Source: a virus
Length of the DNA stretch: 28,704 bases
Reading direction: 5' to 3' (one strand)
Virus record (IMG/VR): IMGVR_UViG_3300025070_003511
Span: 1 to 28,704 of that record
Shown: positions 3,685 to 24,524 of the stretch, in pieces
Layout: every line of letters starts with the position of its first letter
Numbering within the stretch: position 1 is the first letter of the stretch
Translations under genes and position numbers: made by a program
The notes under the pieces: generated by a model
What the model was told of the DNA's origin: nothing
What the model saw: the letters and a program-made list of their open reading frames with translations, nothing else
Database searches by the model: none

Positions 3685-3728
3685 ATATTTGGGTCAAAAT
3701 CATTAACTCTGTACTTAATTCAGCCAAT

Positions 3729-3753
3729 AAAAAGGGCGGATAAACCGCCCTTT
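3729..3753 (-). terminator. Intrinsic terminator after gp18
   Basis: On the minus strand AAAGGGCGG, a 5-nt loop and CCGCCCTTT form a perfect 9-bp stem followed by TTATT. It lies about 20 nt after the gp18 stop codon and ahead of the gp19 promoter. Confidence 0.85.
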
Positions 3754-3771
3754 ATCAAGTTATTGAATAAC

Positions 3772-6594: not shown

Positions 6595-6629
6595 AATATT
6601 CTCCCAATTTAATGTTAAATGGTTATTAC

Positions 6630-6637
6630 TATTTATG
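6630..6637 (-). promoter_or_regulatory. T4-type late promoter box for gp18
   Basis: CATAAATA on the minus strand, 35 nt before the gp18 ATG. The resulting leader carries a GGGAG ribosome-binding site. A 10-bp tandem repeat lies just upstream. Confidence 0.7.
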
Positions 6638-6650
6638 AAAAATAGCAAAT

Positions 6651-6706
6651 ATTATGGTGTTTTAGATAGTATTGGGTGGTATTAAGTGGTATTAGGTGGT
6701 ATTAAA
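6651..6706 (-). repeat. 10-bp tandem repeat upstream of the gp18 promoter
   Basis: On the minus strand the unit ACCACYYAAT occurs three times in a row (positions 6700-6671), followed by two decayed units (ACTATCTAAA, ACACCATAAT). The period equals about one DNA helical turn. The array begins at the dNMP kinase stop codon and ends 14 nt before the gp18 late box. It could be a protein-binding array, a phased AT element, or slippage-derived junk. Confidence 0.75.
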
Positions 6707-7361
6707 CTGACTTTAGATGCCTAAATTCGCCGGTGTCCCAGTCTCTTATGTCGTCAACTTGCTTTTCTAAGTCTTCTAAACTACCATCGTTCTTAATAAT
6801 GTAGTCTACTGGATAGCCTGCCCAATTCCATTCACTCTCATGAACGTCTTTGTATGTGGTTTCCATTAAGCGTCTGCTAACAACATTAGTGCTTGCCTTA
6901 GATGCTGTTTCAAACCACTCAGGTAACTCACCACGTTGTACCCAAATAATTTTTCCGTCCATGCCTTTGATGAGATCTAGTTCGTTTGTAAAACGTGCAT
7001 CACTGATTACAGTACACGGTGCAGTTTTTTCAAGTTGCATTATTCTGTATTCTAAACTGCTTAACCAAATATCCTCATGGAAATGGTTACGCATAACTTC
7101 AGTACCCATTAATTGTAATGCTAAACGTGGTGTAAAATTAGGCACACCTAGTCTATTGCTCCAATATAAATCTGGTGTTTCGCGAAAGTCTCTGCTTTCA
7201 ACGGTATCACCTTCGACTAAATCTCTAGGCCAACCAAAAACTGTAGAACACATATCTTTAAGGGGTGCGGCAAAACTATCTTGCCTACAACCTCTTTCTA
7301 CAAACATTTTTGCTACTGTGTCTTTGCCACTGCCTATGAAACCAACAATGCCTATAATCAT
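6702..7361 (-). CDS. 1: Deoxynucleoside monophosphate kinase (T4 gp1-like)
   Basis: 219 residues. A P-loop GFIGSGKDT at residues 7-15 binds ATP; the GKDT form is characteristic of the T4 gp1/dNMP kinase family. PLKDM near residue 33, RLALQLMGTEVMR near 79-91, the WVQR strand and the ending NDGSLEDLEKQ match the same family (T4 gp1 ends TNDGSLEELFSK). The enzyme phosphorylates deoxynucleoside monophosphates to diphosphates for phage DNA synthesis. It is an early-type function placed between the neck gene gp13 and the sheath gene. The ATG follows the gp13 stop by 3 nt with only a weak AGG upstream, so it is probably coupled to gp13. Its stop codon lies inside the first unit of the 10-bp repeat. 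Confidence 0.85.
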   Translation of the reverse strand: MIIGIVGFIGSGKDTVAKMFVERGCRQDSFAAPLKDMCSTVFGWPRDLVEGDTVESRDFRETPDLYWSNRLGVPNFTPRLALQLMGTEVMRNHFHEDIWLSSLEYRIMQLEKTAPCTVISDARFTNELDLIKGMDGKIIWVQRGELPEWFETASKASTNVVSRRLMETTYKDVHESEWNWAGYPVDYIIKNDGSLEDLEKQVDDIRDWDTGEFRHLKSV

Positions 7362-7364
7362 ATT

Positions 7365-8126
7365 TTAACCTATTACAAATCCTAACGGAATATTACCTTC
7401 TTCCATATTGTGTAGACTTTGGAGTAATCCTTCTATTTCAGTTGCACCTTCTGTTTTTAATGTGTCACCATTTAACTGAATTGCACCACCTGCACCAGGA
7501 AGGCCACCTGTATATTTACTTCTTGCCTCACCAAGTATCATTTTAGATTGAGCAAGAGCATATGAACCAAGCCAATTACTTGCATATACATCGCCTAATA
7601 AAATGTTCTCTGGAATAAAATTATACACACCTACAGCAATTTCTTCATCTGTTTTTACGTTACGTAAAATTTTCAATTGCTTAGTGTTTCTGTTCCAGAT
7701 AAAATTGTATTCACTACCAAATATTCTACCAATGGTTTCTTTGTATTGAGAGAATGCATCAAATGTTGCAAGTCCACCTATTTGGCCTGCATTTAACAGA
7801 TACATATTATTGAATGCCACATCAAAAGGATCAAAATTAACACCTGAACCTGAACTACTACCAACACCTCTACGGTACAAACGTCTAACTTCTTGTACTT
7901 CGTTAGGCAACGTATAGTCCTGTGTGTCAGGTTGTGTCTGTAAAAACATTATGCTTTCTTCAACACTGCCTGCACTGAGTTGTCTGTAACGTGCTATTGC
8001 TTTATCTACAGCAACGTCATAGTGTTCTCGGTCAAGTTCTACATCAACTATACCGTCTGCAAGACGCAATCTAATTTCTGAAATTAAATCGTCTCTACTT
8101 GAATATCCTATTTGATCTTTTGGCAT
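7365..8126 (-). CDS. 13: Neck protein (T4 gp13)
   Basis: 253 residues from the ATG at 8126. A longer reading from GTG at 8141 would start inside the late promoter box and is rejected. The N-terminal helix pair (RDDLISEIRLRLAD, then VELDREHYDVAVDKAIARY) matches T4 gp13 (ELKDVILRRLG, VELTPDQIYDCIQRALELY). The C-terminus (LPGAGGAIQLNGDTL...EGNIPLGFVIG) matches the gp13 ending (LPGGVTIDGQRL...PPFGILVG). gp13 joins gp14 to form the neck that closes the filled head and accepts the tail. GATAAATA lies 5 nt before the ATG with no ribosome-binding site. Unusually its partner gp14 is on the opposite strand, separated by an unknown gene and an epimerase. Confidence 0.85.
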   Translation of the reverse strand: MPKDQIGYSSRDDLISEIRLRLADGIVDVELDREHYDVAVDKAIARYRQLSAGSVEESIMFLQTQPDTQDYTLPNEVQEVRRLYRRGVGSSSGSGVNFDPFDVAFNNMYLLNAGQIGGLATFDAFSQYKETIGRIFGSEYNFIWNRNTKQLKILRNVKTDEEIAVGVYNFIPENILLGDVYASNWLGSYALAQSKMILGEARSKYTGGLPGAGGAIQLNGDTLKTEGATEIEGLLQSLHNMEEGNIPLGFVIG

Positions 8127-8131
8127 AACAC

Positions 8132-8139
8132 TATTTATC
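8132..8139 (-). promoter_or_regulatory. T4-type late promoter box fused to the gp13 start
   Basis: GATAAATA on the minus strand, then GTGTT, then ATG at 8126. No Shine-Dalgarno sequence is present. Confidence 0.7.
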
Positions 8140-8150
8140 ACTTTTTAAGG

Positions 8151-10437: not shown

Positions 10438-11499
10438 ATGCCAAGACTAAGTTTATGGAATCCAGTAAAGAAAAACGACTACAAATTTATAGATAGAATT
10501 GTAGGCGAGCATATCCATGCGGGTGGCACTGGAGTTCATGTACACAAATATTTAGGAGTTCATGCTGAAAATGATGGCAAGGATCCTACAAGGCCTAGTA
10601 GTGCAGATAATAACTCAGAAGTTTTTATACAGGACTTATTATTCTTAGAGAATAGAGACCGTAAATATAGTAAAGACATATTTGAATTACGTGGGCAATA
10701 CAACATTCAAGACAATGATTTTGATCTAACACAGTTTGGTGCTTTTTTAGCAAACGACACACTGTTTATGAACTTCCATATTGAAAGTATGGTAGAGGCA
10801 GTTGGACGTAAACTAATGCCAGGTGATGTGTTAGAACTCCCTCATTTACGTGATGATTTGTTATTAGGCAGTGAAGAAGCAATCGACAGATATTATGTTG
10901 TTCAAGAAGGCTCAAGGCCTGCTGAAGGATATGATCCAGGTTGGTGGCCTCATTTGTGGAGAGTTAAACTTGGTCCAATAAGCGACAGTCAAGAATACAG
11001 AGATATACTTGGTACTGGTGAAGAAGAAGGCGATCTAAGAACATTAATTAGTACGTATCAAAATGAGATACAAGTTAATGATGCTATATTAGAGCAGGCT
11101 AATAATGATGTACCATATGATCCTCAGTATAGAGAGACTGCACATTTATATTATGATGAATCTGTCAAAGATAAACCAGCAGTAGGTGTTGGTACTTGGG
11201 CAGGTGGGGACGCACCGAATGGAATCAGTGTAGTCGGAAGTGGAGAAAAATTTCCTACAAGTGGCATTAACGATGGAGACTATTTCTTAAGAACCGATTT
11301 CCAACCAAATAGGTTATTTAAGAAAAAGGGTACACGTTGGATTAGAATATCAGATGATAATCAAAGTCAATGGGCCGCGGCGAATAAAATTCTCACTTCA
11401 TTTATTAACAACGACAACTTTAGTGTTGCAAATGATGGCGAGGTAACTGAAGAGAAAACTAATCTCAGTAAAGTTGTAAAGCCAAGGACGGATGATTAA
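10438..11499 (+). CDS. 14: Neck protein (T4 gp14, marine T4-like form)
   Basis: 353 residues starting MPRLSLWNPVKKNDYKF. This N-terminus, the IQDLLFLENRDRKY segment, FDLTQFGAFLANDTLFMNF, GRKLMPGDVLELPHL and WWPHLWRVKLGP are, as I recall, the hallmarks of the gp14 neck proteins of marine T4-like phages. The middle aligns with T4 gp14 around its FSNFGMQVQDEVTLSI region. The C-terminal part has the sequence FPTSGINDGDYFLRTDFQPN, which looks like a surface add-on domain. gp14 forms the neck with gp13. The 27 codons upstream in the same frame are rejected as a start because they include the promoter region. The stop overlaps the lysozyme start by 8 nt. Confidence 0.85.
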   Translation: MPRLSLWNPVKKNDYKFIDRIVGEHIHAGGTGVHVHKYLGVHAENDGKDPTRPSSADNNSEVFIQDLLFLENRDRKYSKDIFELRGQYNIQDNDFDLTQFGAFLANDTLFMNFHIESMVEAVGRKLMPGDVLELPHLRDDLLLGSEEAIDRYYVVQEGSRPAEGYDPGWWPHLWRVKLGPISDSQEYRDILGTGEEEGDLRTLISTYQNEIQVNDAILEQANNDVPYDPQYRETAHLYYDESVKDKPAVGVGTWAGGDAPNGISVVGSGEKFPTSGINDGDYFLRTDFQPNRLFKKKGTRWIRISDDNQSQWAAANKILTSFINNDNFSVANDGEVTEEKTNLSKVVKPRTDD

Positions 11500-11977
11500 A
11501 ATGTTTAGCAAGTTATTTAAGGATACAAAAATGGATAGAGAAGCAGTATTTGAACAATTAAAAATTGATGAAGGAGTAGTGTATGAAATCTACAACGATC
11601 ACCTCGGTTACGCCACGTTTGGAGTTGGTCACCTTGTCCTCGAAAGTGACCCGGAACATGGACAACCAACAGGAACTTCAGTATCGGAGCAAAGAGTTAA
11701 GGAGTGTTTCGAGAACGACCTTAACACTGCCATCGGAGAGTGTGACGCTCTATACGAAGGAGGGGAATTTAACGACCTACCAGACGAAGTCCAGCAGATC
11801 TTGGTCAATATGATGTTCAATATGGGACGAACAAGACTAAGTAAGTTTAAGAAAATGCATGCCGCAATTTTAGAAGGTGACTGGAAAACAGCCGCCATGG
11901 AAGGTAGAGACAGTAGATGGCACAAACAAGTAACAAACAGAGCCGAGAGACTAATGGTCAGGCTCGAGAACGTATAA
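11492..11977 (+). CDS. T4-type lysozyme (glycoside hydrolase family 24)
   Basis: 161 residues, matching T4 lysozyme (164). The catalytic set is present with T4 spacing: Glu27 in IDEG, Asp36 in YNDHLGY and Thr42 in YATFGVGH (T4: E11, D20, T26). NMMFNMG and SRWHKQVTNRAERL match the C-terminal lobe (T4: NMVFQMG, SRWYNQTPNRAKR). It cuts the glycan strands of peptidoglycan. There is no signal peptide, so it needs a holin for lysis or is carried in the virion. Start 11492 is chosen because AAGG lies just upstream; a Met at codon 4 is an alternative. It sits between gp14 and gp15, and its bases are clearly richer in G+C than either neighbour (hand count 114/240 for 11581-11820), suggesting recent acquisition. 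Confidence 0.92.
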   Translation: MIKMFSKLFKDTKMDREAVFEQLKIDEGVVYEIYNDHLGYATFGVGHLVLESDPEHGQPTGTSVSEQRVKECFENDLNTAIGECDALYEGGEFNDLPDEVQQILVNMMFNMGRTRLSKFKKMHAAILEGDWKTAAMEGRDSRWHKQVTNRAERLMVRLENV

Positions 11978-12105
11978 CAGATAGAGCGTTCAAAATACTA
12001 GAACAAGGCAACCCCAAAGGTTGGTTTTGGTGTTCTGACAGACGTGATTACTACAGATATCATGACTGGATGGAAGGAACAGGAATAGGAAAAAATGGCA
12101 GGTAA
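11917..12105 (+). CDS. Small unknown protein overlapping lysozyme and gp15
   Basis: 62 codons that fill the otherwise empty 117 nt between lysozyme and gp15, with a 61-nt overlap with the end of lysozyme and an 11-nt overlap with the start of gp15. The part outside the overlap has a protein-like, aromatic-rich composition (GNPKGWFWCSDRRDYYRYH), which argues for real coding. No ribosome-binding site precedes the ATG and no other start is available in frame. No function can be proposed. Confidence 0.45.
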   Translation: MAQTSNKQSRETNGQARERITDRAFKILEQGNPKGWFWCSDRRDYYRYHDWMEGTGIGKNGR

Positions 12106-13447
12106 GAACCTAGATTATTGGTACGATGAACAGATAAAACGTTATCTAATTCAACTTGTCAGAATTTTCTCCAATTTCAAAGTTAGAGAAAACACTGATA
12201 AAGGTACCAACTATAATCGTGTGCCTGCAAGGTACGGCGACATTAGTAGAATGGTTGCACATATACTGCGTAACAATTCAGAGAACACAGTAAACAGTGC
12301 GCCAATGATAACTGTCAGCATTGGCAGTATAGCCGTTGCCAGAGAAAGAGCTCAAGACCCATACTTAATGGACACACAACAAGTTGCCGAAAGAGAATGG
12401 GACAGAGAAAACAATATGTATACAAGTGAGCAAGGAAACTTGTATACAACTAAAAGGTACATGCCAGTGCCATACAACTTATCTATTAATGTTGATATAT
12501 GGACAACTAATACTGATACTAAATTACAATTACTAGAACAAATTATGGTATTGTTTAATCCAAGTATTCAATTACAATCAAACAGCAATCCATTAGATTG
12601 GAGCAACGTGTTTGAAGTTGAAATGACTGACATAAACTTTAGCAGTAGAAGTCTTCCTGCAGGAGTAGACGAGCAACTTGATATAGCAACATTAACATTT
12701 GATGTTCCTATTTGGATCTCTCCTCCAGCAAAAGTACAAAGACAAAAGATTATACAAAAGATTATTGCTGATATACACAAAGTAAGTGACATAGATTCTC
12801 TAGGAATTACAGATGATTCATACTATGATTTCTTTGAGAACTTTGATGAAACAGGGCAAGTGGTAATAACTCCAAACGATTATAAACTACAAGTTGCAAA
12901 CGGTGGTGTAAAACTTATCACAATACAAGGCCAACCAGTTAAGTGGAATGACTTAATAGAAATGCAAGGCGAACTAAAAGCAACAAGCAGACTTGAATTA
13001 AATTTATCAAACGACATGGATGACATATCTCAATTAGTTATTGGTACTGTTGTTGCTAATCCACTTGATGAAACATCATTGATTTTTAATATAGACAGCG
13101 ACACATTGCCGTCGAATACACTCAGTGATATTACAAAAATTATTAATCCTCAATCATCTAGACCCAGTAACGGTTTAGACCCACAAGCATTAGGGCAAAG
13201 GTATTTGATTACAGAAAATATAGTGCCTACGTTTGCAGAATGGGGTAGTATTAATGCAAGTGCAAATGACATAATAGAGTACGACGGTAACCAATGGAGC
13301 ATAGTATTTGACAGTAGCAATGTTAGCGATCTTGCTTATGTAACTAATTCATATACTGATGCACAATACAAATGGACTAAAGCAACTGGCTGGATAAGTA
13401 GTTGGGAAGGTGAATACAACGGTGGTTACTGGAGACTTATTTTATGA
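12095..13447 (+). CDS. 15: Tail sheath stabiliser / tail terminator (T4 gp15)
   Basis: 450 residues. The N-terminal 230 residues match T4 gp15 (272 residues) along their length: YWYDEQIKRYLIQLVRIFSN, then a VP.RYGD segment, YNLSINVDIWTTNTD, LLEQIMVLFNP, VFEVEMTDINFSSRS and LTFDVPIWISPP, each with a T4 counterpart in order. The remaining 220 residues are a C-terminal extension with a WGSINASANDIIEYDG segment and a repeated Trp-rich end. gp15 caps the finished tail and provides the surface that binds the gp13/gp14 neck. The ATG has a good Shine-Dalgarno (AGGAA). The stop overlaps the Nudix start (ATGA). The order gp14-lysozyme-gp15 keeps the T4 neck order with an inserted lysozyme. Confidence 0.85.
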   Translation: MAGKNLDYWYDEQIKRYLIQLVRIFSNFKVRENTDKGTNYNRVPARYGDISRMVAHILRNNSENTVNSAPMITVSIGSIAVARERAQDPYLMDTQQVAEREWDRENNMYTSEQGNLYTTKRYMPVPYNLSINVDIWTTNTDTKLQLLEQIMVLFNPSIQLQSNSNPLDWSNVFEVEMTDINFSSRSLPAGVDEQLDIATLTFDVPIWISPPAKVQRQKIIQKIIADIHKVSDIDSLGITDDSYYDFFENFDETGQVVITPNDYKLQVANGGVKLITIQGQPVKWNDLIEMQGELKATSRLELNLSNDMDDISQLVIGTVVANPLDETSLIFNIDSDTLPSNTLSDITKIINPQSSRPSNGLDPQALGQRYLITENIVPTFAEWGSINASANDIIEYDGNQWSIVFDSSNVSDLAYVTNSYTDAQYKWTKATGWISSWEGEYNGGYWRLIL

Positions 13448-14758: not shown

Positions 14759-16816
14759 TTATTTGGTGGTTGCAATAAAGATACCGTTCCAATCAGCGGG
14801 GAGGTCCTGTGTTTTTTGATATTCGCAACGATCAATCCACATATCGTAGTAGCCTATCATTCTACCATCAAAATGTGTCTTTAACAATTCACACATTTTA
14901 ATTGCTTTATCAAAATTTTGATTTCTATAATGCTTATGCATATCGGCATGCATTTCTCTAGACTTAGCATGTTTGCTTGGCTTGTAATCAAGTACAGTGT
15001 AAATTTCTATGCCAACACTTTTACCTTTAACTGCCAAGTCATCTACTTTCAAATAAAAGAAATCATTTTTAGTTTTGTGATATGTGCTACCGCCTACCAA
15101 TAAGAGGCATCCATACTCTTTACACTTAGACTCAATTCGTGCGGCAGTTGATACAGCATCTCCAAGTACATCATAACTATGTCTGCTTGTAGAACCCATC
15201 TCACCGAGATAACCAACGCCAGTGTTAATGCCAGCCCCCATACCAATTGGAGGTCTTCCCTCTGCTGTGATCTTATCATTAAATTTCTCCACTGCTCTCA
15301 GCATATCCAAACCGGTTTGCACTGCTGAATGTTCATGCTTTGCATCGTCGTTTGGTGCATTGTGTATATGCATACTTGCATCACCTATGTACTTGATAAT
15401 CATACCGTCTGCATCAAGTACAGGTTGTGTGATAGCATCCATATATCCATTCATTAGTTTTGTGAGTCCTTGTACATCATCTCCAAAACTTTCACCTAAT
15501 GGTGTGAAGCCACGCAAGTCTGAGAAGCATATTGATATCTCTCGCTTCATGCCTTCTTTGATCAGTGCAGGATTTTCTTGTAGCATACGCACAACTGTGG
15601 GTGAACAATATCCTGCAAACTGCTTTTCTATTTCTTGTCTGAGTTTGAATTGTATCCAGAAGTTATTAAAACTTGCATGAGTAAAGATTAGGAATGCACT
15701 TATTGCTGGAAAAGTTGCATCAAATAAAACTAAATTTGCTGTGTAAGAATTTACACTGTAGTATACAATTCCGCCTATAATAGTAACCGTAGTTACCAGT
15801 CCTGCCCATATAGGCAACTTATATATTGCTAAAGCAATCAATACCATACTCAACAACGCACACAGAAGCTCTGTAAGCGACGATAATTCAGATCTGGTAA
15901 TGTTACTCCCGTCTATAAAATTCTGTAGCATGTGTGCTTGTATGTGCTGTGGTAGTATGTTGCCTCTCGGAGTGGGAACCGGATTAGCAACACCTTCTGC
16001 ACTTACTCCCACTATCACGAACTTTCCACCTAAGTCAGGCAGTTTACTCGCATCTGTATATTCGTATTCTTCAAATGTATTGTTGAAGCGAATATAGGCA
16101 GTTCCATCTGTCTGTGTAACTATGGGATCGAAAGGTGGTACTGCAAATTCTTGTACACCTATCTCTGATGTCTTTAACATATAACTTGGCTTTTGTGTAT
16201 ATGCTCTCAACATCTCAATAGCAAAAGAAGGATATATTTTACCCTCTACTCCAATTGCTAAAGGATATGTTCTTGTTTGATTATCTGGTTGTGGGGCACT
16301 TGCTATTACTCCTATACCGTCAGCCGACTGTTCGAGCTCTGAAATATTTATGACGAGATTTGGCCAACTTAGCAAGAAGTCTGTCGCTTTCGAAGGGCCT
16401 ATTGTGGCTGTGCCAATGTGAGGGCCTGAACTCCTCACCCCTTTGGCAGACGGGGTCTGGCTTAAAACGACTCCATTCTCGTTTATCCAACTCGATAAAA
16501 TCGGGTCGCCTCCAAACCTGTCCGGTTCCGAAAACATAATATTCAGCCCTATAATGCCCCCATTCATCGTTCTCAAATCGCTTATCAGTTGAGCAAAATT
16601 CTGTCTCGGCCATGGCCATTGTCCCCATTGTTGTAAGCTCTTTTCGCCTATGTTTATTACTACAACTTCGTCGCTTTGTTTAACTTCATCTAATTGTTGG
16701 TAGTAATCGAATGTCTGTGAACGCAGACTTTGAACTGGCGTAGGGTCAGCAACTCGTAATGCTGTCAGTAGTAATATAGATATTGCTACGGCATAGCCGC
16801 TGTACAACCATTTCAT
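14759..16816 (-). CDS. CHASE2-domain class III adenylate/guanylate cyclase
   Basis: 685 residues and apparently complete. An N-terminal membrane segment (about 4-21) precedes a CHASE2 sensor domain outside the cytoplasmic membrane (about 25-300; VVVINIGEKSL, WPWPR, DPILSSW). Three hydrophobic segments follow (about 315-385), then a class III cyclase domain (about 425-610) and a C-terminal helical tail ending DLPADWNGIF, usual for this family. Metal-binding residues are Asp433 (FSDLRGFT) and Asp479 (IGDA), the purine-recognising Lys is in IIKYIGD, and GDAV keeps an Asp expected for ATP. The catalytic Asn of the N-x3-R pair is Ser556 with Arg560 kept. The product would be cAMP (or cGMP) made in response to an extracytoplasmic signal. 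GATAAATA lies 5 nt before ATG. Part of the CHASE2 region is unusually GC-rich. Confidence 0.93.
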   Translation of the reverse strand: MKWLYSGYAVAISILLLTALRVADPTPVQSLRSQTFDYYQQLDEVKQSDEVVVINIGEKSLQQWGQWPWPRQNFAQLISDLRTMNGGIIGLNIMFSEPDRFGGDPILSSWINENGVVLSQTPSAKGVRSSGPHIGTATIGPSKATDFLLSWPNLVINISELEQSADGIGVIASAPQPDNQTRTYPLAIGVEGKIYPSFAIEMLRAYTQKPSYMLKTSEIGVQEFAVPPFDPIVTQTDGTAYIRFNNTFEEYEYTDASKLPDLGGKFVIVGVSAEGVANPVPTPRGNILPQHIQAHMLQNFIDGSNITRSELSSLTELLCALLSMVLIALAIYKLPIWAGLVTTVTIIGGIVYYSVNSYTANLVLFDATFPAISAFLIFTHASFNNFWIQFKLRQEIEKQFAGYCSPTVVRMLQENPALIKEGMKREISICFSDLRGFTPLGESFGDDVQGLTKLMNGYMDAITQPVLDADGMIIKYIGDASMHIHNAPNDDAKHEHSAVQTGLDMLRAVEKFNDKITAEGRPPIGMGAGINTGVGYLGEMGSTSRHSYDVLGDAVSTAARIESKCKEYGCLLLVGGSTYHKTKNDFFYLKVDDLAVKGKSVGIEIYTVLDYKPSKHAKSREMHADMHKHYRNQNFDKAIKMCELLKTHFDGRMIGYYDMWIDRCEYQKTQDLPADWNGIFIATTK

Positions 16817-16821
16817 AGTAA

Positions 16822-16829
16822 TATTTATC
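16822..16829 (-). promoter_or_regulatory. T4-type late promoter box fused to the cyclase start
   Basis: GATAAATA on the minus strand, then TTACT, then ATG at 16816; no Shine-Dalgarno sequence. It places the cyclase under phage late control and indicates that the gene is integrated into the phage programme rather than an assembly artefact. Confidence 0.7.
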
Positions 16830-16836: not shown

Positions 16837-17553
16837 TCAGTCAACAAAAGCACGTTCGAGCATGAAGTCTCCCATCTCACCTGTGTTGCCTTCTTGGAAA
16901 CCTAATTTAGAAAACATGTCTCTGCACTCTCTATTCAGGTCTGGCGAACCGCATACCATTACAGCATCTAACTCTTTACTAAGATTTCTATTCAGTGTAG
17001 GTTCAATGTGATTCCAAAATCTGCCTTGTCGAAAATATTTTTCTCTGGTAACAGAGGGTATGTATGTAAAAGGCATCATTCCTTCTATCTCATCTAATGA
17101 ATTTTTGTGTGTGATTTCTGCAACTTCTCTTACAGTATGAAACAGATACACATTTTCAAATCTACTATATGTCTCTGGATCTTTAGCAATGCTTAAAAAG
17201 GGTGCTATGCCGGTTCCAGTTGACAACATAATTAAATTTTGTTTTGGTGTAAGATAATCACATACTAGACTGCCTGTACACTTTGGCTTTAATAATATAT
17301 CGTTGCCTGGCTGTATGTGTTGTAATCTACTTGTTAATGGACCATCGGATACTTTAATACTGAGAAACTCTAGATAATCATCGTAACAAGTACTCACTAA
17401 ACTGTATGCTCTATAAATTGGACGTGGTTCAGCATCTAAACCAATCATAGCAAATTCGCCATTCTTGAATCTAAATGATTTATTTCTGGTAGTTTTGAAT
17501 GAGAAAAGTCGATCACTATAGTGATTTACTTCTAAGACTTTTTCTGTTAGCAT
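16837..17553 (-). CDS. fpr: Ferredoxin/flavodoxin-NADP+ reductase (bacterial Fpr type)
   Basis: 238 residues, slightly shorter than E. coli Fpr (248). RAYSL (residues 48-52) is the FAD-binding RxYS motif, STGTGIAPF (111-119) binds the NADP pyrophosphate, VCGSPDLN (near 200) is the NADP-binding CG motif, and the C-terminus GEMGDFMLERAFVD matches the proteobacterial type, which ends in an aromatic-containing FVE/FVD tail. It moves electrons between NADPH and ferredoxin or flavodoxin. In infection it could feed reductant to ribonucleotide reduction, Fe-S repair or oxidative defence. No ferredoxin gene is in the window. TATAAATA lies 5 nt before the ATG. It follows the membrane protein gene and precedes the cyclase. 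Confidence 0.9.
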   Translation of the reverse strand: MLTEKVLEVNHYSDRLFSFKTTRNKSFRFKNGEFAMIGLDAEPRPIYRAYSLVSTCYDDYLEFLSIKVSDGPLTSRLQHIQPGNDILLKPKCTGSLVCDYLTPKQNLIMLSTGTGIAPFLSIAKDPETYSRFENVYLFHTVREVAEITHKNSLDEIEGMMPFTYIPSVTREKYFRQGRFWNHIEPTLNRNLSKELDAVMVCGSPDLNRECRDMFSKLGFQEGNTGEMGDFMLERAFVD

Positions 17554-17571: not shown

Positions 17572-18087
17572 TTATCGCAGATTGCAACGTCTTTCGGCTT
17601 TACTGATAAGCCTAAAATTATTATTCACAACAAATCCACCTAGTAGCAAAGGTGCCACTAGTTCGGCTCTGGTAATGTTATCCCATCCTATTGCACTGTA
17701 TGTAGGAAACAAAATTACACCTTTTAATAATGCCATTTCACCTACTGTAGGTATTTCAGGCAATAATGGATTTGCTTCTTTAATACAATCATATTTTACA
17801 CCTTCATATGTACTGTATATGTCTGCTAGTTGCAAACCCCAAAACAACATCCACATCCAGTTGTCTGCAGGTTCACTCCAATAATTATTTGGAATATATG
17901 CTTCCATTAGGAATTCACGTTGTTCAGGCAATACAATTGGTGGAACACCATAAACTTGATCTATGACTTCTTGGCTGTAAGGGGCATGCCAGCCATTTTG
18001 TATACTATGTATTTGTAATGGCGTTAATTTAGCAGTTGCACTTAAAGAAAAAAGCGACAACAAAATAAATGCTATCGCTTTCAACAT
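17572..18087 (-). CDS. Secreted or membrane protein of unknown function
   Basis: 171 residues from the ATG at 18087, chosen because AGGAG lies 8 nt upstream. The N-terminus (MLKAIAFILLSLFSLSATA) is a signal peptide with likely cleavage after ATA. The mature part has Trp-rich WMWMLFWGLQLADIYSTYEG, then KEANPLLPEIPTVGEMALLKG and hydrophobic stretches around residues 115-130 and 140-155, suggesting an inner-membrane protein. The LADIYSTYEG...EANPLL pattern recalls the small DUF5658-like membrane families, a weak similarity from memory. It lies downstream of the lipoprotein gene and may share its transcript. Confidence 0.75.
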   Translation of the reverse strand: MLKAIAFILLSLFSLSATAKLTPLQIHSIQNGWHAPYSQEVIDQVYGVPPIVLPEQREFLMEAYIPNNYWSEPADNWMWMLFWGLQLADIYSTYEGVKYDCIKEANPLLPEIPTVGEMALLKGVILFPTYSAIGWDNITRAELVAPLLLGGFVVNNNFRLISKAERRCNLR

Positions 18088-18196
18088 TATTCGCACTCCT
18101 GAGGATTCTCGGTGCAATATTTTTTAATTTGCTGTATTAACATTTTAATATCACTCCCGTTAGTTGCCTTACTCTCTTTGCGAGGAGAGATCAGGC

Positions 18197-18463
18197 TTAG
18201 TCCTTTTTTGGGTCTTGAAGTTCGTCTGTTTGTTTATCGACTTCTGTTTCTACAGTTTCGATAACTCCACTTGCCGCTTCGGCCGCAGTGTTAGCAATAC
18301 TAGACGCATCTTCTAAAACTGCTTGACTTACAGTCGAAACAGCATTAACAGAACCGTCTATTACGCCTGTCGTGAACTCTTTTCCTCCTTCAATTACTGC
18401 ACCAACTGATGCACAACTTACAAAGAAGAACAGACCTGCGAACATAGAAAATATATTCTTCAT
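18197..18463 (-). CDS. Small lipoprotein
   Basis: 88 residues from the ATG at 18463, chosen by GGAGAAA 5 nt upstream. It begins MKNIFSMFAGLFFFVSCAS: a lipoprotein signal with Cys17 as the likely acylated residue. The mature chain is Ala/Val/Glu rich and probably one long amphipathic helix (VIDGSVNAVSTVSQAVLEDA) with a charged, acidic-basic end (DELQDPKKD). Layout resembles entericidin-type or Lpp-like small lipoproteins of the outer membrane, but no specific family match is claimed. It has its own late box and a structured leader, so it is probably controlled separately from the curli genes just upstream. Confidence 0.75.
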   Translation of the reverse strand: MKNIFSMFAGLFFFVSCASVGAVIEGGKEFTTGVIDGSVNAVSTVSQAVLEDASSIANTAAEAASGVIETVETEVDKQTDELQDPKKD

Positions 18464-18490
18464 ATTTTCTCCAGTTTTTAGGTTAACCAA

Positions 18491-18806: not shown

Positions 18807-19097
18807 TCATGAAAACTTCTTTTGGAGCCATTTGAAAACGGCGTATATTGATAGTCCGTAAAAGGCTAACACACTCATTGGTAGTGCTATGTAGGCCAAT
18901 TCCCACGGACTGAGGAATAGTATTTCCCAGGTAAAGTTTGCAACGGCTTCTGCATCACCTAATGGTTGCAGTTCAAGCATTTCTGAATCCATTTCAACAC
19001 CTGCTTCTTCCATCATAACAATGAGTTCATCGTATGATTCAGTGTCTAAACAGATTTCAAATTCTTCTGGACAATTTCCGTCGCCGCCGTAATCCAT
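18807..19097 (-). CDS. Single-pass membrane protein with acidic N-terminal domain
   Basis: 96 residues. The first 60 are strongly acidic (MDYGGDGNCPEEFEICLD, then MMEEAGVEMDSEMLE) with two Cys (residues 9 and 16). Residues about 66-88 form one membrane segment (LAYIALPMSVLAFYGLSIYA), followed by a short basic end (KWLQKKFS). By the positive-inside rule the acidic domain would face the periplasm. Its ATG overlaps the stop of curlin-like 2 (TAATG), so it is made with that protein. It might anchor or chaperone a curli component in the inner membrane; this is inference from position only. Confidence 0.75.
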   Translation of the reverse strand: MDYGGDGNCPEEFEICLDTESYDELIVMMEEAGVEMDSEMLELQPLGDAEAVANFTWEILFLSPWELAYIALPMSVLAFYGLSIYAVFKWLQKKFS

Positions 19098-20200
19098 TAG
19101 TTGCTACCATTTACTGTTACTGAACACCCTGCTGTGTTATAACATACACCTGTTATACTATAACTACCTGCTTGACTTGTAACATTTTGTGTTAAGTTGA
19201 GGGTGTAAGCACCAGTGCCATATGTTAAATCTATGGCCGCTGTTGCGGCATTACTGCCTCGTTGATTAACATCAACACTATGTCCATCGCCATCTAACAC
19301 AATGTCTGCCCATTTGACACCACCGTTACCACGTTGATATAAATCCACAGTGTTACTATCACCGGTTATTTCTATGAAGCCATCGTGTCCTGCTTTGCCC
19401 ATTTGTGTATGGTCTACATTATTACTATCACCTGTAATGATATTTGCTAGGTGATGTCCTGCTCCGCCACTGCCTCTGTTGGTGTCTGTTTGATAACTTG
19501 CTAACACATTGTTATCTCCAGTCACTGTCCAGTATGCTTCATGGTCTCCTGTTTCGTCAACATCAGTTGTACCATCAGCATGTTTGCCTTGCCACACTTT
19601 GAGATTGTTACTGTCTGAATTAGAGCCTAATAAAACATAAACATGGTTGTCGTCTTGCCCGTTGCCCTGATAAGTATCTATGTTGTTGTAAGTGCCAGTA
19701 AATACTTCAAGGTAAGCATAATGACTGTCTCCTGCTTGATAAAGTTGAATAGCATTATTAGTGTGACTATTACTTCCACCTGCTTCTAACCAAGCATAGT
19801 TATTATCACCTATTACATCTGCTTGTAATGAAACTGAATTACCGTGAGCATCTAAAAATAAATCATTGGAATTACCGTCGATGTCTCCTCTTACATTTTG
19901 ACTACTACCACTTGACCAAAGGCCCACATCGTTAAGGTTGCCTACCATGTCAATGTCAAGACTTAAACTGGCACCATTTAGACTGGCGGCTCCAGTTAGT
20001 TGTAAATTTTTTACTGTGTTGCCGTAACCTTGTTGTAGAATATTGAGATCTAAGTTATTACCTGCTTGATTAATGAGGATAGTGTTATCCGCATTTGCTT
20101 TTGTAGGTATTAATAAAAACATGCCTAATATAATATACCCCAATACTAAAAGAGGGGTATCTTTTGGTTTCATGTTGTTTAGTTTTTTATCTATGTTCAT
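19097..20200 (-). CDS. Curlin-repeat secreted protein 2 (CsgA/CsgB-like)
   Basis: 367 residues. An N-terminal signal ends at KANA (residue 37). The mature protein opens with NTILINQAGNNLDL and ILQQGYGNTV, a motif shared with curlin-like 1. Repeats with the curlin pattern (N-x-hydrophobic-x-x-x-Q-x-G/N) follow: GDSNNVDHTQMG, GDSNTVDLYQRG, GHSVDVNQRG, GDNNVLASYQ and related units with a period of roughly 20-25 residues, giving a predicted beta-solenoid amyloid. It ends with a Cys pair (CYNTAGC). Asn, Gly, Gln, Asp and Ser dominate. It would be exported by the CsgG pore encoded upstream. AAGG precedes the ATG, and a late box within the upstream FecR gene (20228-20235) can drive it. It is much longer than E. 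coli CsgA (151). Confidence 0.87.
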   Translation of the reverse strand: MNIDKKLNNMKPKDTPLLVLGYIILGMFLLIPTKANADNTILINQAGNNLDLNILQQGYGNTVKNLQLTGAASLNGASLSLDIDMVGNLNDVGLWSSGSSQNVRGDIDGNSNDLFLDAHGNSVSLQADVIGDNNYAWLEAGGSNSHTNNAIQLYQAGDSHYAYLEVFTGTYNNIDTYQGNGQDDNHVYVLLGSNSDSNNLKVWQGKHADGTTDVDETGDHEAYWTVTGDNNVLASYQTDTNRGSGGAGHHLANIITGDSNNVDHTQMGKAGHDGFIEITGDSNTVDLYQRGNGGVKWADIVLDGDGHSVDVNQRGSNAATAAIDLTYGTGAYTLNLTQNVTSQAGSYSITGVCYNTAGCSVTVNGSN

Positions 20201-20201
20201 A

Positions 20202-21389
20202 TTAACCTTGTGACTGTCTTATGTATATATTTATGCTACTACAATCGTTAACACAAATAATGTTACTACGGTTTTCTATATCTGTTTCTATTCTTGCACT
20301 ACTGCCAATTGGAACCTTAACACTAATTTTACCATTAACATCTCTTAAAAACCAAATTTGTCCACCACTGTCTATAATAGTATTAAACTGTGTCTTAGGA
20401 TCAAATCCAGGATTGAGTGTTCCTGTGATAATATCTTTTCCCACACGTTCGCTTGATGCTGACAAACGGTCTTTGCCTAATTCATCTACATCTTCTATTA
20501 ATTCTAGTAAATCCTGTAAAAAATCTACTCCCAAATAATCAATGTCTAGTTCAGTAAATTCTAATGAAACATCGTCTGAGTTATCATCTAATAAATTTTC
20601 TTCTAAAAAATCTACATCTAAATCATTAAATGCAAGATAATCTATGCCTCGTTTTTCTGCTTGTTGTTGTTCTTCTGCTTCTGTTATTTGTACTGGTTCA
20701 CTTACAATAAACATATTGTCTATTTGATTAATATCTAAGTTTGTTAATGTAACTGGCCTAGTAGGCTCTTGTTCAAATGTTGTAACCATAACTGCTTGAT
20801 ATGCTTCTGTTAGAAATACTTGGCCGCCATCATTAGTAACACTTATACTGCCTGAAGGTTTACATCCTTCTTCAAGTTTAACTCTATCGTTGCAGTTTTC
20901 GTCTGGTAACAGTATAACAAGGCTCCTACCTAACTCGTCTACTGTTGTTGTAAAATCTGTACCCCTAACGCCAATAGTGGCAGTGGGTGTTTGTATTTGA
21001 ATATTTTCTCTTGGTACTAATCCTAATCCACCTGTGGCAAATCTTGCTGTGCCTTGTGCAAAATTTAATGCCATTCTGCTTTTACTTGGATTGGGATCGT
21101 AGACATACTCGTTAATTTCTATTAACGTATGCTCAGTCATACTGACTTGTGTCTCGTCTATAAACTGTATCTTTAGCCTACCATTTGTTGTTTCAACGTT
21201 ATCCATACTAACAATGCCAGTATCAATTGTTGCTGAAAGTTGTTCACCGGTAGTACGTTCTATACTGCCCGGTGAACCGCTTTGTTCAAAAATGTCGCCG
21301 ATAGACTCTCCGGCTACAAATGGTGCCGAAAACAGAAGAGCTACGAGTACACTAATCTTTTTGTGTAATCGTAACTGTTGCGTTTTCAC
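20202..21389 (-). CDS. FecR-domain periplasmic protein
   Basis: 395 residues. A signal peptide (KKISVLVALLFSAPFVAG, cleaved near residue 27) is followed by a FecR domain: IQFIDETQVSMTEHT and IEINEYVYDP (residues 75-99), then TPTATIGVRGTDF (134-146), its signature. The middle (about 235-310) is very acidic. The C-terminus has a Cys pair (CVNDC) followed by a strand SSINIYIRQ. There is no membrane segment, so it should be periplasmic or exported. In bacteria FecR proteins often sit next to CHASE2-cyclase genes, and one lies downstream here. The start is GTG at 21389: a stop lies 3 nt upstream in frame and no ATG exists before the signal peptide. It overlaps curlin-like 1 by 38 nt. Confidence 0.88.
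   Translation of the reverse strand: MKTQQLRLHKKISVLVALLFSAPFVAGESIGDIFEQSGSPGSIERTTGEQLSATIDTGIVSMDNVETTNGRLKIQFIDETQVSMTEHTLIEINEYVYDPNPSKSRMALNFAQGTARFATGGLGLVPRENIQIQTPTATIGVRGTDFTTTVDELGRSLVILLPDENCNDRVKLEEGCKPSGSISVTNDGGQVFLTEAYQAVMVTTFEQEPTRPVTLTNLDINQIDNMFIVSEPVQITEAEEQQQAEKRGIDYLAFNDLDVDFLEENLLDDNSDDVSLEFTELDIDYLGVDFLQDLLELIEDVDELGKDRLSASSERVGKDIITGTLNPGFDPKTQFNTIIDSGGQIWFLRDVNGKISVKVPIGSSARIETDIENRSNIICVNDCSSINIYIRQSQG
20228..20235 (-). promoter_or_regulatory. T4-type late promoter box inside the FecR gene, ahead of curlin-like 2
   Basis: CATAAATA on the minus strand, within the last codons of the FecR gene (SINIYIRQ) and 27 nt before the curlin-like 2 ATG, with an AAGG ribosome-binding site in between. 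It would give curlin-like 2 extra late expression. Because it is also coding, chance is possible. Confidence 0.5.
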
Positions 21390-22071
21390 TGTCTATATTC
21401 AAATCCATATGACTATAACATGATGATGTACCTGTTGGGCAAGTACCAGAACTTTGAATTAAATCAAAGTCGCCGCCACTACCGTCGTGTACTACTTTCA
21501 TGTATTGATATGTTCCATCAGTTTGACTAGTAACAAAGTTGTTGCTATCGCCTGTAATATCAAAATTCCAAGTAGAATCATCTACTTCAATATCGATATC
21601 CCACACATTGCTGTCACCAAGTATTGTTAGGTCAAAGTCCAATCTTTCTGCACTTGCCGCACTACCTAGGTCAAAATCAAATGTGTTTGAGTCGCCTGTA
21701 ACATCTACTAGGATATCACCAGAATCTGCAGATCCTGTACTACCTATTAAAATATCCCACACGTTGCTGTCGCCAGTAAAAGTCCAGTCGTATGTACTGC
21801 TGTCTGCAGTAATTGCACCAAAAAACTTATTACTATTACCAACTTGGTCGAGGTTTATATTTAATGATGAGCCATTGATATCTAAATCAGATCCTTGTGT
21901 TGAATCACCTGATATTTTGTTACCATAACCTTGTTGTAAAATGACTAATGTTAATGTATCACCTGCTTGGTCAAGCAAGATCTCATTATCTGTTGCACTT
22001 TGTGACAATGCAACTCCACTAAACATTAAACCTGCTGTCATAACTAATGCTGACAATTTATTCTTCAACAT
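21352..22071 (-). CDS. Curlin-repeat secreted protein 1 (CsgA/CsgB-like)
   Basis: 239 residues from the ATG at 22071, chosen by a perfect AGGAGG 6 nt upstream, which is encoded in the last codons of csgG. The signal peptide runs to about residue 24 (LVMTAGLMFSGVALS). The mature part starts with EILLDQAGDTL and ILQQGYGNKI, shared with curlin-like 2. Then come repeats of GDSN followed by hydrophobic/aromatic residues: GDSNVWDI twice, GDSNTFDF and GDSNNF, spaced about 20-35 residues and rich in Asp and Trp, predicted as a beta-solenoid. The C-terminus has the Cys pair CPTGTSSC. It overlaps csgG by 14 nt and the FecR gene by 38 nt. It is probably an amyloid-type substrate of CsgG. Confidence 0.87.
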   Translation of the reverse strand: MLKNKLSALVMTAGLMFSGVALSQSATDNEILLDQAGDTLTLVILQQGYGNKISGDSTQGSDLDINGSSLNINLDQVGNSNKFFGAITADSSTYDWTFTGDSNVWDILIGSTGSADSGDILVDVTGDSNTFDFDLGSAASAERLDFDLTILGDSNVWDIDIEVDDSTWNFDITGDSNNFVTSQTDGTYQYMKVVHDGSGGDFDLIQSSGTCPTGTSSCYSHMDLNIDSENATVTITQKD

Positions 22072-23077
22072 TGTTTCCTCCTGAGTTTGTAGTATCGTTG
22101 AGATCAATCAAGTCAATGTTTTCAATATTTTCAATGAAAACCTCATCTTTAATTTCCCAATATCCTCTCTGATCGCCTTGTTCTATGAGAGCAAGAACTG
22201 CCGCTTCTACTGCACTTCTTACTGCCCAAGTAACACTTTCATTTGAGGTGATACCTGTTTCTAACTCTAATAATTTTGTATCCATATCAAGGAAACGAAA
22301 AACGTCTCCTCCCATGCCTACACTCAAAATTGTCTTGTATGTCTGTACATTGAGAATAATTTCGCCGGTAAGTACGCTCACTGCTCTAAGACTAATTACT
22401 ATACTATCTCGTCTATATTGTGAACTACCACCAATACCTAAGTACCTTGCTCCATTACCTCCTGTTTCTATGTTGCTGTCATAACCTACTATACCACCTT
22501 CAAGTAAAATTCCTGCAAACAACATAGGTTGTAAATCAGGTGCCTCACCGCCGGCTTTTCTAACATCATCTCTTGTACTTCGAATAATCTGCCTTTCTCG
22601 TACAAGATTGTCAAGACCCAGACCTCTTTCCACGACTCGAAACCAAGTACCGTTACCAGTATCTTTGGCTCCTGCCGCCTTAAGAGCATCTATTAATAAT
22701 GCTTTTGCCCCTTGCGTTACCGCTGTAGAAAATAAAGCAATATTATCACGTTGCTTTCGCTGACCGGTTAAATCAGCAAACTCATACACAGCAACCACTG
22801 GCATAATTTCTGCTGGTGGAAGTTGTCTGAGCTTCGCGTATGTTGGGAGTTCAACTTGCCCTGGCTCTTCAATGCACTCCATGGCCGAGTCCCAACACCA
22901 CTCTCCCGTAAGGGAATTCTGTGGTAATGCTAAAGATGCACATCCTGTAAAAAGTAAACACATTGCTGTAATACATGCAATTTTCGTGCCCCTTTTTACT
23001 GCGTCTTTAACACCCGTAAACGCATCATAAAAATTTAAGTGTGGGATTTCCCACACTGATCGACTATTGTTAGCCAC
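22058..23077 (-). CDS. csgG: Curli secretion channel CsgG
   Basis: 339 residues against 277 in E. coli. The match covers the whole chain: VYEFADLTGQRK, FSTAVTQGAKALLIDALK, FRVVERGLGLDNLVRERQII, ILLEGGIVGYDSN, GGNGARYLGIGGSSQYRRD, VLTGEIILNVQTYKTILS, VFRFLD and ETGITSNESVTWAVRSAVE all have direct CsgG counterparts. A lipobox-like FTGC46 gives the outer-membrane lipid anchor. CsgG forms the nonameric pore that exports curli subunits. The start is GTG at 23077 overlapping the csgF stop; an in-frame ATG at codon 39 would remove most of the signal peptide. The region before the signal is unusually long (about 32 residues) and contains a hairpin (23038-23057). Confidence 0.96.
   Translation of the reverse strand: MANNSRSVWEIPHLNFYDAFTGVKDAVKRGTKIACITAMCLLFTGCASLALPQNSLTGEWCWDSAMECIEEPGQVELPTYAKLRQLPPAEIMPVVAVYEFADLTGQRKQRDNIALFSTAVTQGAKALLIDALKAAGAKDTGNGTWFRVVERGLGLDNLVRERQIIRSTRDDVRKAGGEAPDLQPMLFAGILLEGGIVGYDSNIETGGNGARYLGIGGSSQYRRDSIVISLRAVSVLTGEIILNVQTYKTILSVGMGGDVFRFLDMDTKLLELETGITSNESVTWAVRSAVEAAVLALIEQGDQRGYWEIKDEVFIENIENIDLIDLNDTTNSGGNNVEE
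23038..23057 (-). promoter_or_regulatory. Perfect inverted repeat with U-rich tract in the csgG start region
   Basis: AGTGTGGGA and TCCCACACT are 9-bp arms separated by 2 nt; as RNA they form an 8-bp GC-rich stem with a 4-nt loop, and on the transcribed strand are followed by TTAAATTTTT. It lies inside codons 7-14 of csgG. It looks like an attenuator or terminator placed between the upstream csgF part and the csgG part of the operon. Confidence 0.6.
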
Positions 23078-23609
23078 CGATTGCTACTCCTACTGGAATA
23101 TCAATAGTGGTTGTCGAACCTTCTGCGTCTACTATTGTTAATCTAATTATTTCTATACCATCTTCACCCATAAGTCTTTCATACGTTACAGTGTTACCTT
23201 CGATGGTAAAGATGCCGTAATCGGCACCCTCTTCATTACCAAACATCTGATCTACTAATTGTCTAGATATCTGACTATAAATTCTGCTTTCTAAGTTTCT
23301 CAAAAACTTGTTTAATGTTGAGTTTTCTTCTTCACGTTGCTGACGTAATAGTTCTGCCTCAATATCATCTCTAATTTTGTCCTTGCGACTTTTTTGTTGA
23401 TTCTCAATAGTTAAATAATGTGCGCCTGTGCCAACGCCGCTAAAACTTGGATTCTTAAATTTATGAACTAGTTCATCGGCTAATGCCAACGGACTCATAA
23501 CCAACAATCCTAATAAAACACCAAACGAGAATGCTTTGAATAAATCACTTCCGGACCAAATACGTGGACCAATTTGTTTTTTTAATAACTCATAATCTTT
23601 ACTGTTCAT
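23070..23609 (-). CDS. csgF: Curli accessory protein CsgF
   Basis: 179 residues. A signal anchor ends at LALA44. The mature start DELVHKFKNPSFSG aligns position by position with mature E. coli CsgF (GTMTFQFRNPNFGG), the part that inserts into the CsgG pore. A helical middle (residues 75-130, LRQQREEENSTLNKFLRNLESRIYSQI in part) and a C-terminal strand region with GADYGIFTIEG and LTIVDAEGSTTTIDIPV complete the family layout. CsgF sits at the cell surface on the CsgG channel and helps nucleate curli. An n-region of about 24 residues precedes the hydrophobic core of the signal, longer than usual. AAGGAG precedes the ATG, which overlaps the stop of the upstream gene. Confidence 0.92.
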   Translation of the reverse strand: MNSKDYELLKKQIGPRIWSGSDLFKAFSFGVLLGLLVMSPLALADELVHKFKNPSFSGVGTGAHYLTIENQQKSRKDKIRDDIEAELLRQQREEENSTLNKFLRNLESRIYSQISRQLVDQMFGNEEGADYGIFTIEGNTVTYERLMGEDGIEIIRLTIVDAEGSTTTIDIPVGVAIGG

Positions 23610-23907
23610 TGTCTGTCTCCTTGTGCTTTTTTAGAGTGTCTTGATCTTTTGCGTCTTTGACAAGTTGCTCTTTAGCACGGTACTCTAATACAACATTAAC
23701 TTTTTGTTGTAACCTAATTAAATCCTGATCTAACATTCTTGTTTGATCTATAACTCTTATTAATGCCATATGCATTTCTTCAAGTTGTGGATTAATGTGT
23801 TCTCCTATAAACCACCAAACATAATATATAAAGTAACCTAGTCCAACCATCATGACTATGGGAAAGCCATAATCATTAATCAGAGAGGACACACTGGAAA
23901 TTTCCAT
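23599..23907 (-). CDS. Single-pass membrane/coiled-coil protein 2
   Basis: 102 residues. One membrane segment near the N-terminus (about 14-34; FPIVMMVGLGYFIYYVWWFI) is followed by a long charged helix (about 40-90) that probably forms a coiled coil, ending in a basic-acidic tail. The layout and several positions match the other small membrane protein of this operon at 24134-24430 (both have L-I-x-x-x-G-x-P-I, then G-x-F-I, and end with V-x-x-x-L-E-x-R), so the two look like diverged paralogues. Possible roles are a holin-like or scaffold function or an inner-membrane partner of curli export; the sequence does not decide. It is preceded by GGGAG, overlaps the AbrB-like gene stop (TAATG) and overlaps csgF. 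Confidence 0.75.
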   Translation of the reverse strand: MEISSVSSLINDYGFPIVMMVGLGYFIYYVWWFIGEHINPQLEEMHMALIRVIDQTRMLDQDLIRLQQKVNVVLEYRAKEQLVKDAKDQDTLKKHKETDNEQ

Positions 23908-24134
23908 TATGACTCCCGTGGATTTATATGAGTAATATCCAGTAAATTAACTTTTTTTAATGTTACCTCTTGGGTAACAGGGTCTACAAATGACATAAAG
24001 CCATCGCCGGGCTTAATATTGAGATACTTAGCCTCTAGTTCTGGAATAGTTATGGACTCATCTTTCTTGAGATGAATATAATATTCCGCAAATACCATTG
24101 CGATATCGCTATTGTTTGGTTTAATGCTTTGCAT
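23907..24134 (-). CDS. Small AbrB/MazE-like protein (putative DNA-binding)
   Basis: 75 residues. The second half (residues 28-62) reads ITIPELEAKYLNIKPGDGF then EVTLKKV, which follows the swapped-hairpin AbrB pattern (strand-IPxEhxxxhxIKPGDxh-strand-hxLKKV) used by AbrB and MazE-type DNA-binding proteins. The first half (NSDIAMVFAEYYIHLKKDES) would supply the opening strand. If correct it could be a small regulator of the curli operon in which it lies, but this rests on a motif pattern seen by eye. It is preceded by AGGAGAG and is linked by TAATG overlaps to the genes on both sides, so it is strictly co-translated with the two membrane/coiled-coil proteins. Confidence 0.6.
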   Translation of the reverse strand: MQSIKPNNSDIAMVFAEYYIHLKKDESITIPELEAKYLNIKPGDGFMSFVDPVTQEVTLKKVNLLDITHINPRES

Positions 24135-24430
24135 TAATCTCTCCTCGCATCTAATTTACCGTCTTCAATAAAATTTTCTGCTCGGGCAACTCTGTCTATG
24201 TCTGGTCTTAACTCTAATGCACTGCTTACTAACAAATCAATTTTCATCATCTCGTTACTCATAGTACGAGCACGATTTTCAAGACTGTTGCAAAAAATAG
24301 TTAGTGTTTTGATTTCTTCTACTATGCCTTGTAAAATTTGTTTGATTACAAGAAAGATAAAGAATCCCATTACAATACTACCAGCAATGGGGGCACCAAC
24401 CTCTGCTATTAAGTTAAAAATTTCATTCAT
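24134..24430 (-). CDS. Single-pass membrane/coiled-coil protein 1, first gene of the curli operon
   Basis: 98 residues from the ATG at 24430, chosen because AGGTGG lies 8 nt upstream; a GTG 12 nt earlier is an alternative. One N-terminal membrane segment (about 12-35; GSIVMGFFIFLVI) is followed by a long helix (about 40-85) with coiled-coil character. It resembles the gene at 23599-23907 in size, order and several aligned residues. It opens the operon after a late box at 24525-24532. Its function is unknown; the position ahead of csgF and csgG suggests an inner-membrane component for the same system. Confidence 0.75.
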   Translation of the reverse strand: MNEIFNLIAEVGAPIAGSIVMGFFIFLVIKQILQGIVEEIKTLTIFCNSLENRARTMSNEMMKIDLLVSSALELRPDIDRVARAENFIEDGKLDARRD

Positions 24431-24524
24431 ACGTGTAGCCACCTATTTGTTTCTGTTTATGGTGTTTATAAGTGTATGTGTCTCGGATAGAATTTTATTG
24501 TTCTAATTTATACCTACCCACATG

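Follow-up and report, generated by a model that had tools for sequence, protein, structure and literature searches.

The question raised by this locus is what a bacteriophage does with a complete sensor cyclase. The 28.7-kb virus record analysed here (the whole stretch of 28,704 nucleotides is called the window below) comes from a marine virus that infects bacteria, and the first observation made on it, an intact phage gene for a CHASE2-class III nucleotidyl cyclase, was confirmed. The product is a complete membrane-bound enzyme that probably acts as a sensor of the cell envelope and produces a signalling nucleotide. The original prediction regarded such a gene as unusual for phages, but homologues are annotated in Pelagibacter phage HTVC008M and the Melnitz phages, and the module that holds them is described by Wittmers et al. 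(2022; PMC9599517). The gene is thus of a known kind; its jumbo phage carrier is new, and its catalytic type is derived.

The cyclase gene and its predicted structure

The reading frame at positions 14759–16816 on the minus strand is unbroken and encodes 685 amino acids (PHROG_35576, 4.5e-151), which we assign to sensor type S1 and catalytic type A. Two Pfam matches, both beyond the curated cut-off, place a CHASE2 domain (PF05226) at residues 15–325 (E 1.2e-38) and a Guanylate_cyc domain (PF00211) at residues 424–606 (E 1.5e-16), where profile positions 6–179 of 183 are aligned, so that the profile runs across the entire catalytic domain. In the AlphaFold model (pLDDT 86.5, 34-sequence alignment), a transmembrane (TM) helix precedes an alpha/beta domain on the extracytoplasmic side, after which come another three TM helices; a linker then leads to the cyclase fold (residues 423–609), and a short helical extension follows at the C-terminus. 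The predicted TM helices (7–23, 312–333, 336–361, and 368–400) flank CHASE2 with one on its N-terminal and three on its C-terminal side, a membrane topology that is predicted from the structure model. The top PDB match of this model in Foldseek was CyaB of Pseudomonas aeruginosa (3r5g; TM 0.91 over the target), and the class III domain presumably acts as a dimer. The original prediction of a full-length, membrane-anchored CHASE2 class III cyclase therefore holds, with its topology as modelled, and the viral relatives on which that prediction was staked number 96 in IMG/VR. The C-terminal helical extension (residues 612–685; window 14759–14983) occurs in catalytic types A and B, is absent from type C, and varies more than the remainder of the protein between close relatives.

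The active site and its constraint

The metal-binding Asp pair (D433 and D479), the substrate-binding pair (K475 and D549), and an Arg (R560) are all present in the window cyclase. The metal and purine residues claimed originally are therefore there, but the claim passed over a Ser (S556) that replaces the transition-state Asn. Measured against the canonical site of bacterial CHASE2 cyclases (K, T/S, N, R), the substrate Lys and the transition-state Arg are kept as K475 and R560, while the second substrate position, a Ser/Thr in those enzymes, is D549 (codon 15170–15172, minus strand) and the transition-state Asn is S556 (codon 15149–15151, minus strand), as placed by alignment. The Asp pair, the Lys, and the Arg were invariant among 82 phage and 78 bacterial sequences. 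In contrast, the T/S + N combination found in every phage representative of types B and C (21/21) and in every bacterial relative (78/78) is replaced in all 18 type A representatives by D + S, and the coupled change from T/S to D and from N to S was seen in none of the former (0/21 and 0/78). Because of this difference, we file the window enzyme as a derived variant, apart from the canonical members.

The tree branch leading to type A is very long (3.4 substitutions per site). Nevertheless, catalytic-domain dN/dS was about 0.055–0.064 in most type A pairs; it was 0.12 between the window and one jumbo contig (L012), a pair with low dS. Judging from these ratios, the type A catalytic domain is under strong purifying selection, and a dN/dS of about 0.06 implies a constraint under which the window cyclase is presumably an active enzyme. 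Its product is most likely cAMP, as suggested by the retained K475, and the Ser at the transition-state Asn position may lower the activity.

A late promoter at the start codon

The T4-type late promoter −10 element GATAAATA (16822–16829, minus strand) lies 5 nt ahead of the cyclase ATG. The core motif ATAAATA stands exactly 5 nt before the ATG at 7 of the 31 gene starts, and these seven are all the cases among the 1074 ATGs of the window; random sets of ATGs never contained more than three. The position alone is informative: the window contains 14 copies of ATAAATA against 11.6 expected, which is no over-representation, and we dropped abundance as evidence of promoters since the count was not significant. 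The motif is kept in place in the upstream regions of 28 of 39 distinct relatives, where the 33 nt further upstream are just 32% identical. The late promoter originally proposed at the gene start is thus borne out by position and conservation. In T4-like geometry, TATAAATA covers about −13 to −6. Given this geometry and the 5-nt spacing, transcription would start from the A of the ATG, and the cyclase mRNA is predicted to be leaderless.

Two spacing classes of the motif occur in the window. The exact 5-nt class, which is predicted to be leaderless, comprises the gene starts at 668, 1147, 8126, 10438 (plus strand), 14533 (plus strand), 16816, and 17553, versus a class in which the motif lies 27–35 nt before the ATG (gene starts at 3643, 6594, 10344, and 20200), several of them with a purine-rich stretch resembling a ribosome-binding site.

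The curli module around the cyclase

The original prediction treated the cyclase as a stand-alone signalling gene and missed that it is actually the final gene of a curli/FecR module transcribed in the same direction. In the order of transcription on the minus strand, this module consists of two homologous 102-aa proteins (24134–24442 and 23599–23907), CsgF (23070–23609; Pfam CsgF 4.4e-17), the curli secretion pore CsgG (22058–23077; Pfam CsgG 1.7e-47), curlin-repeat protein 1 (21352–22107), an exported FecR-domain protein (20202–21389; Pfam FecR 1.5e-11), curlin-repeat protein 2 (19097–20200; Pfam Curlin_rpt 1.8e-7), small accessory genes, and the cyclase as the last gene. Curlin-repeat protein 1 is related to protein 2, matches CsgA weakly (NCBIfam, 6.9e-5), and may truly start at an internal codon; protein 2 has a late-promoter motif 27 nt upstream. 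Among the 19 loci that extend 6 kb or more upstream, 18 have CsgG, the curlins, and FecR ahead of the cyclase on its own strand. The same gene order is annotated in Melnitz and HTVC008M, and the csgF-csgG-curlin-FecR-curlin-cyclase order reported for pelagiphages (Wittmers et al., 2022; PMC9599517) is also that of the window.

The accessory genes, all on the minus strand, are less regular. A FAD/NAD-binding oxidoreductase (16837–17553; Pfam NAD_binding_1 7e-9) is not constant in the module; it has a 5-nt late-promoter motif of its own, and some relatives have it ahead of the cyclase but others behind. A DUF5658 protein (17572–18117; Pfam) and a 97-aa protein that is probably exported (18197–18490) are each present in about half of the loci compared. 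The 102-aa protein conserved immediately upstream of csgF has apparently one TM stretch. The 102-aa pair, coiled-coil-like in sequence and of no known domain, precedes csgF in most of the phage curli modules compared, and these proteins are possible pore- or holin-like partners. Neither matched HisKA or HATPase in Pfam or NCBIfam, so the histidine kinase reported ahead of csgF in podovirus modules has no counterpart at this place in the window. A very long repetitive protein of at least 1365 aa (24606–28703) with recurring DLSEGSNLYYTNARADARI-type repeats is probably a tail fibre; the part of its ORF that was tested had no Pfam match.

The presence of curlin-repeat genes in the Melnitz record sits oddly with the statement in the Melnitz paper that csgA/csgB are lacking. 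Together with the small upstream genes that bear no signs of a kinase here, this has a bearing on what is in print. An unannotated record of 1,499 bases (OR851715.1, "Salmonella phage S.Kent 1-2-1") contains a CsgG match at 42%, which is probably host DNA contamination.

FecR as a candidate partner of the sensor

The phage FecR protein ends in a curlin-like strand (INIYIRQ in the window). A curlin-type strand of the form [IVF]x[IVF]xQ was found in the tails of all 19 distinct phage FecR proteins, compared with 32 of 41 curlins, none of 28 bacterial FecR proteins, and 1 of 433 other (control) ORFs; the motif was picked after the tails had been viewed, which makes these counts descriptive, while the bacterial and control sets still give a fair contrast. 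Both Ile residues and the Gln of this strand are the same in all of 15 phage FecR proteins. In a model with a pLDDT of only 59, the folded FecR part resembled the anti-sigma signalling domain of PupR (Foldseek), and the C-terminal domain had no Foldseek match.

FecR beside a CHASE2-cyclase is, by genome comparison, a bacterial pairing. FecR genes numbered 32 in the flanks of bacterial CHASE2-cyclases, where the density measured in 12 of those genomes (0.85 per Mb) would predict about 1; this ratio is approximate, since the density was obtained with the Pfam model and the count with a profile grown from phage FecR. FecR lay within 200 bp of the cyclase in 19 of 80 cases. Because csgG was found near none of these 80 bacterial relatives, the coupling to curli is a phage arrangement that had no precedent among those tested. 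In Campylobacterota, CHASE2 cyclases cluster with cAMP phosphodiesterase, FecR, and TPR genes (PMC9239204), and biofilm formation in Burkholderia is controlled by an operon of LysM-FecR and a CHASE2-kinase (PMC5192318). A point against FecR as the input comes from Sinorhizobium meliloti, in which a FecR-domain gene among the targets of Clr/cAMP signalling was dispensable for signal perception (PMC5498481).

The carrier is a jumbo phage lineage

From the match of the module to HTVC008M and Melnitz, the window was expected to be a pelagimyophage (Kyanoviridae), which its structural proteins ruled out. For the tail tube and one structural protein, the nearest relatives are in the jumbo phages PA5oct, Phosso, and Atu_ph07 (45–51%). 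The 940-aa sheath recurs at 52–85% in 20 of 29 cyclase-carrying IMG/VR records (one a partial match where the contig ends), among them two contigs of 339,794 bases (L012) and 216,820 bases (L041); in Melnitz and HTVC008M only a short stretch of it matches. In the 339,794-base contig, the capsid protein shares 70% identity with that of PA5oct-like phages. Judging from these proteins, the window and its close relatives belong to a PA5oct/Atu_ph07-like jumbo lineage, not to Kyanoviridae, so that the same module has a carrier different from the podovirus or myovirus pelagiphages of the published set. The open-access literature gave no previous description of a jumbo phage with a curli module, which is weak evidence of novelty.

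The structural genes of the window (192–8141 and 10438–13447) show resemblance to T4-type head closure, tail tube, and the 940-aa sheath, and include a gp15-like sheath stabiliser and a lysozyme-domain protein. L012 and L041 are PA5oct-like jumbo contigs that carry the curli-FecR-cyclase module. A group at 55–59% (L060–L073) was considered podoviral on account of its missing late promoter, but the members tested carry the 940-aa jumbo sheath.

Sensor and catalytic halves are exchanged

The two halves of the cyclase have different relatives. Compared with one homologue (L036), the window protein is 82–100% identical in the sensor and TM part and 17–52% in the catalytic part, while with Melnitz the sensor is at 24–50% and the catalytic domain mostly at 72–95%. 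The same is visible in DNA: identity to L057 is 97–100% over about residues 406–540 and mostly 58–77% in the sensor, and identity to L053, whose phage sheath is 85% identical to that of the window, is 87–99% over residues 60–300 but drops to about 50% in the catalytic half. Trees of the split domains disagree, and AU tests rejected a single history with p-values (2.4e-7, 8e-79, 1.6e-4, and 1.5e-75) that are indicative, as the groups were named after the trees had been seen. Five combinations of two sensor types with three catalytic types were found. According to identity profiles and alignment, the main junction lies approximately at residues 394–398, just past the last TM helix (15623–15637, minus strand), and other exchanges begin earlier, within the TM part. 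These comparisons indicate that phage CHASE2 sensors and catalytic domains are cassettes shuffled between viruses. Because CHASE2 and the cyclase stay joined though each is swapped, both functions seem to be selected.

Possible roles of the phage cyclase

Expressed late, the cyclase most likely reports on curli/envelope state through a cyclic nucleotide of its own making. To the fuller proposal, that it forms the signalling end of a curli (type VIII secretion) module carried by the phage, in which the state of FecR and curli passes through CHASE2 to a cyclic nucleotide, we give almost an even chance. Late in infection, the gene's own gp55-type late promoter would lead to a CHASE2 sensor cyclase placed in the host inner membrane. 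CsgG and CsgF would form a pore in the outer membrane and the two curlin-repeat proteins would be exported, together with the FecR-domain protein that ends in the same type of strand. FecR, the putative input of CHASE2, would inform the periplasmic domain of ongoing secretion or fibre assembly, and the dimeric class III domain would then produce a cyclic nucleotide in the cytoplasm, most likely cAMP, as K475 is kept. No cNMP-binding domain (PF00027) was found in the complete Melnitz and HTVC008M genomes or in four IMG/VR records, so the putative receptor must be the host's or of another type. PF00027 was present in 142 of 191 sampled Alphaproteobacteria, and the listed genomes without it were almost all small.

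That the intact, late-expressed, and constrained cyclase instead raises host cAMP late in infection and shifts metabolism or regulation independently of curli seems unlikely. A soluble cyclase would do for such a reset, yet the large sensor is always retained and the gene keeps its place as the last of the curli/FecR module; late expression is also late for reprogramming, and the phage brings no receptor. The reset of host cAMP originally suggested found no specific support, there being no cNMP-binding domain in the two complete phage genomes, whereas the suggestion that the enzyme reports on the envelope is favoured by the gene surroundings. About as improbable is a weak or changed enzyme in type A (the window and Melnitz), drifted from cAMP synthesis to another product or to a mainly structural or sensing role, as the coupled replacements and the very long branch would allow. 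The invariant Asp pair, Lys, and Arg and the low dN/dS in most type A pairs argue against such drift, and exchanges between type A and the canonical-looking types B and C within one sensor context point to equivalent outputs.

The original prediction, partly supported overall, had also raised cyclic-nucleotide defences. PADLOC profiles of PycC do match the catalytic domain (4e-16), but only over the shared class III domain, which lends no specific support to a Pycsar-like cyclase or decoy, and no Pycsar effector, cNMP-binding gene, or adjacent cNMP-sensing effector was seen among the module genes and neighbours scanned. We know of no Pycsar cyclase with a CHASE2 sensor, and a role in defence or counter-defence chemistry is very improbable. 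The chance is equally slim that the gene is a passenger riding with the curli module for no benefit; some phage curli modules do lack the cyclase (PMC9599517), but strong purifying selection, an own late promoter, and repeated domain replacement without loss speak against it.

We therefore return to the reporter of curli/envelope state. A possible but doubtful extension is a phage-specific "fibre-secretion sensor", in which marine jumbo phages run a curli system whose FecR, with its curlin-like last strand, has joined the curlin export and fibre pathway and reports to a cyclase with a catalytic half that phages trade as a cassette at the TM/linker junction. Through this diversifying second-messenger output, phages would set the timing or manner of cell aggregation or lysis. 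Roles proposed in print for phage curli are aggregation, superinfection exclusion, uptake, and lysis timing. If the model is true, at least two distinct myovirus lineages rewire the host envelope with a curli machine and monitor it via their own second-messenger sensor. The cassette exchange suggests that a pairing of "any sensor plus any cyclase" is kept by selection, and so offers a natural experiment in the modularity of sensor enzymes. The FecR tail predicts export of FecR by CsgG, as the 5-nt spacing predicts the leaderless mRNA. Three points deserve to be followed: the swapping of cassettes, the curlin-like tail of FecR, and the carriage by a jumbo phage.

Comparison with known systems

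The module of the window shares its genes and their order with the pelagiphage module (HTVC008M and Melnitz), and the cyclases are homologous over their full length (52% to Melnitz and 34% to HTVC008M). The window differs from the module of Wittmers et al. (2022; PMC9599517) in its PA5oct/Atu_ph07-like carrier, in the accessory genes between curlin 2 and the cyclase, and in small upstream proteins without a kinase domain where a "histidine kinase" was described; neither the domain shuffling nor the FecR tail is reported in the available text of that paper. The sensor is of type S1, as opposed to S2 in the published module.

Bacterial CHASE2-class III cyclases (those of Alphaproteobacteria, e.g., Sinorhizobium CyaD1, and of Campylobacterota; PMC9239204) have the same domain order, about 30% full-length identity, and frequently an adjacent FecR gene, in which they resemble the phage module. 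They differ from the window at the active site (T/S + N against D + S), and bacterial FecR lacks the curlin-like tail and bacterial CHASE2-cyclases lack nearby curli genes, whereas the phage module has both. The BiofilmReg operon of Burkholderia (PMC5192318) likewise combines FecR with a CHASE2 sensor in biofilm control, but there the output runs through a histidine kinase and a response regulator, and there is no curli pore, while the output in the window is a cyclase. Finally, P. aeruginosa CyaB shares the cyclase fold, while in the alignment it has Asn at the transition-state position occupied by S556 in the window. The input domain of CyaB differs from the CHASE2 domain of the phage enzyme.
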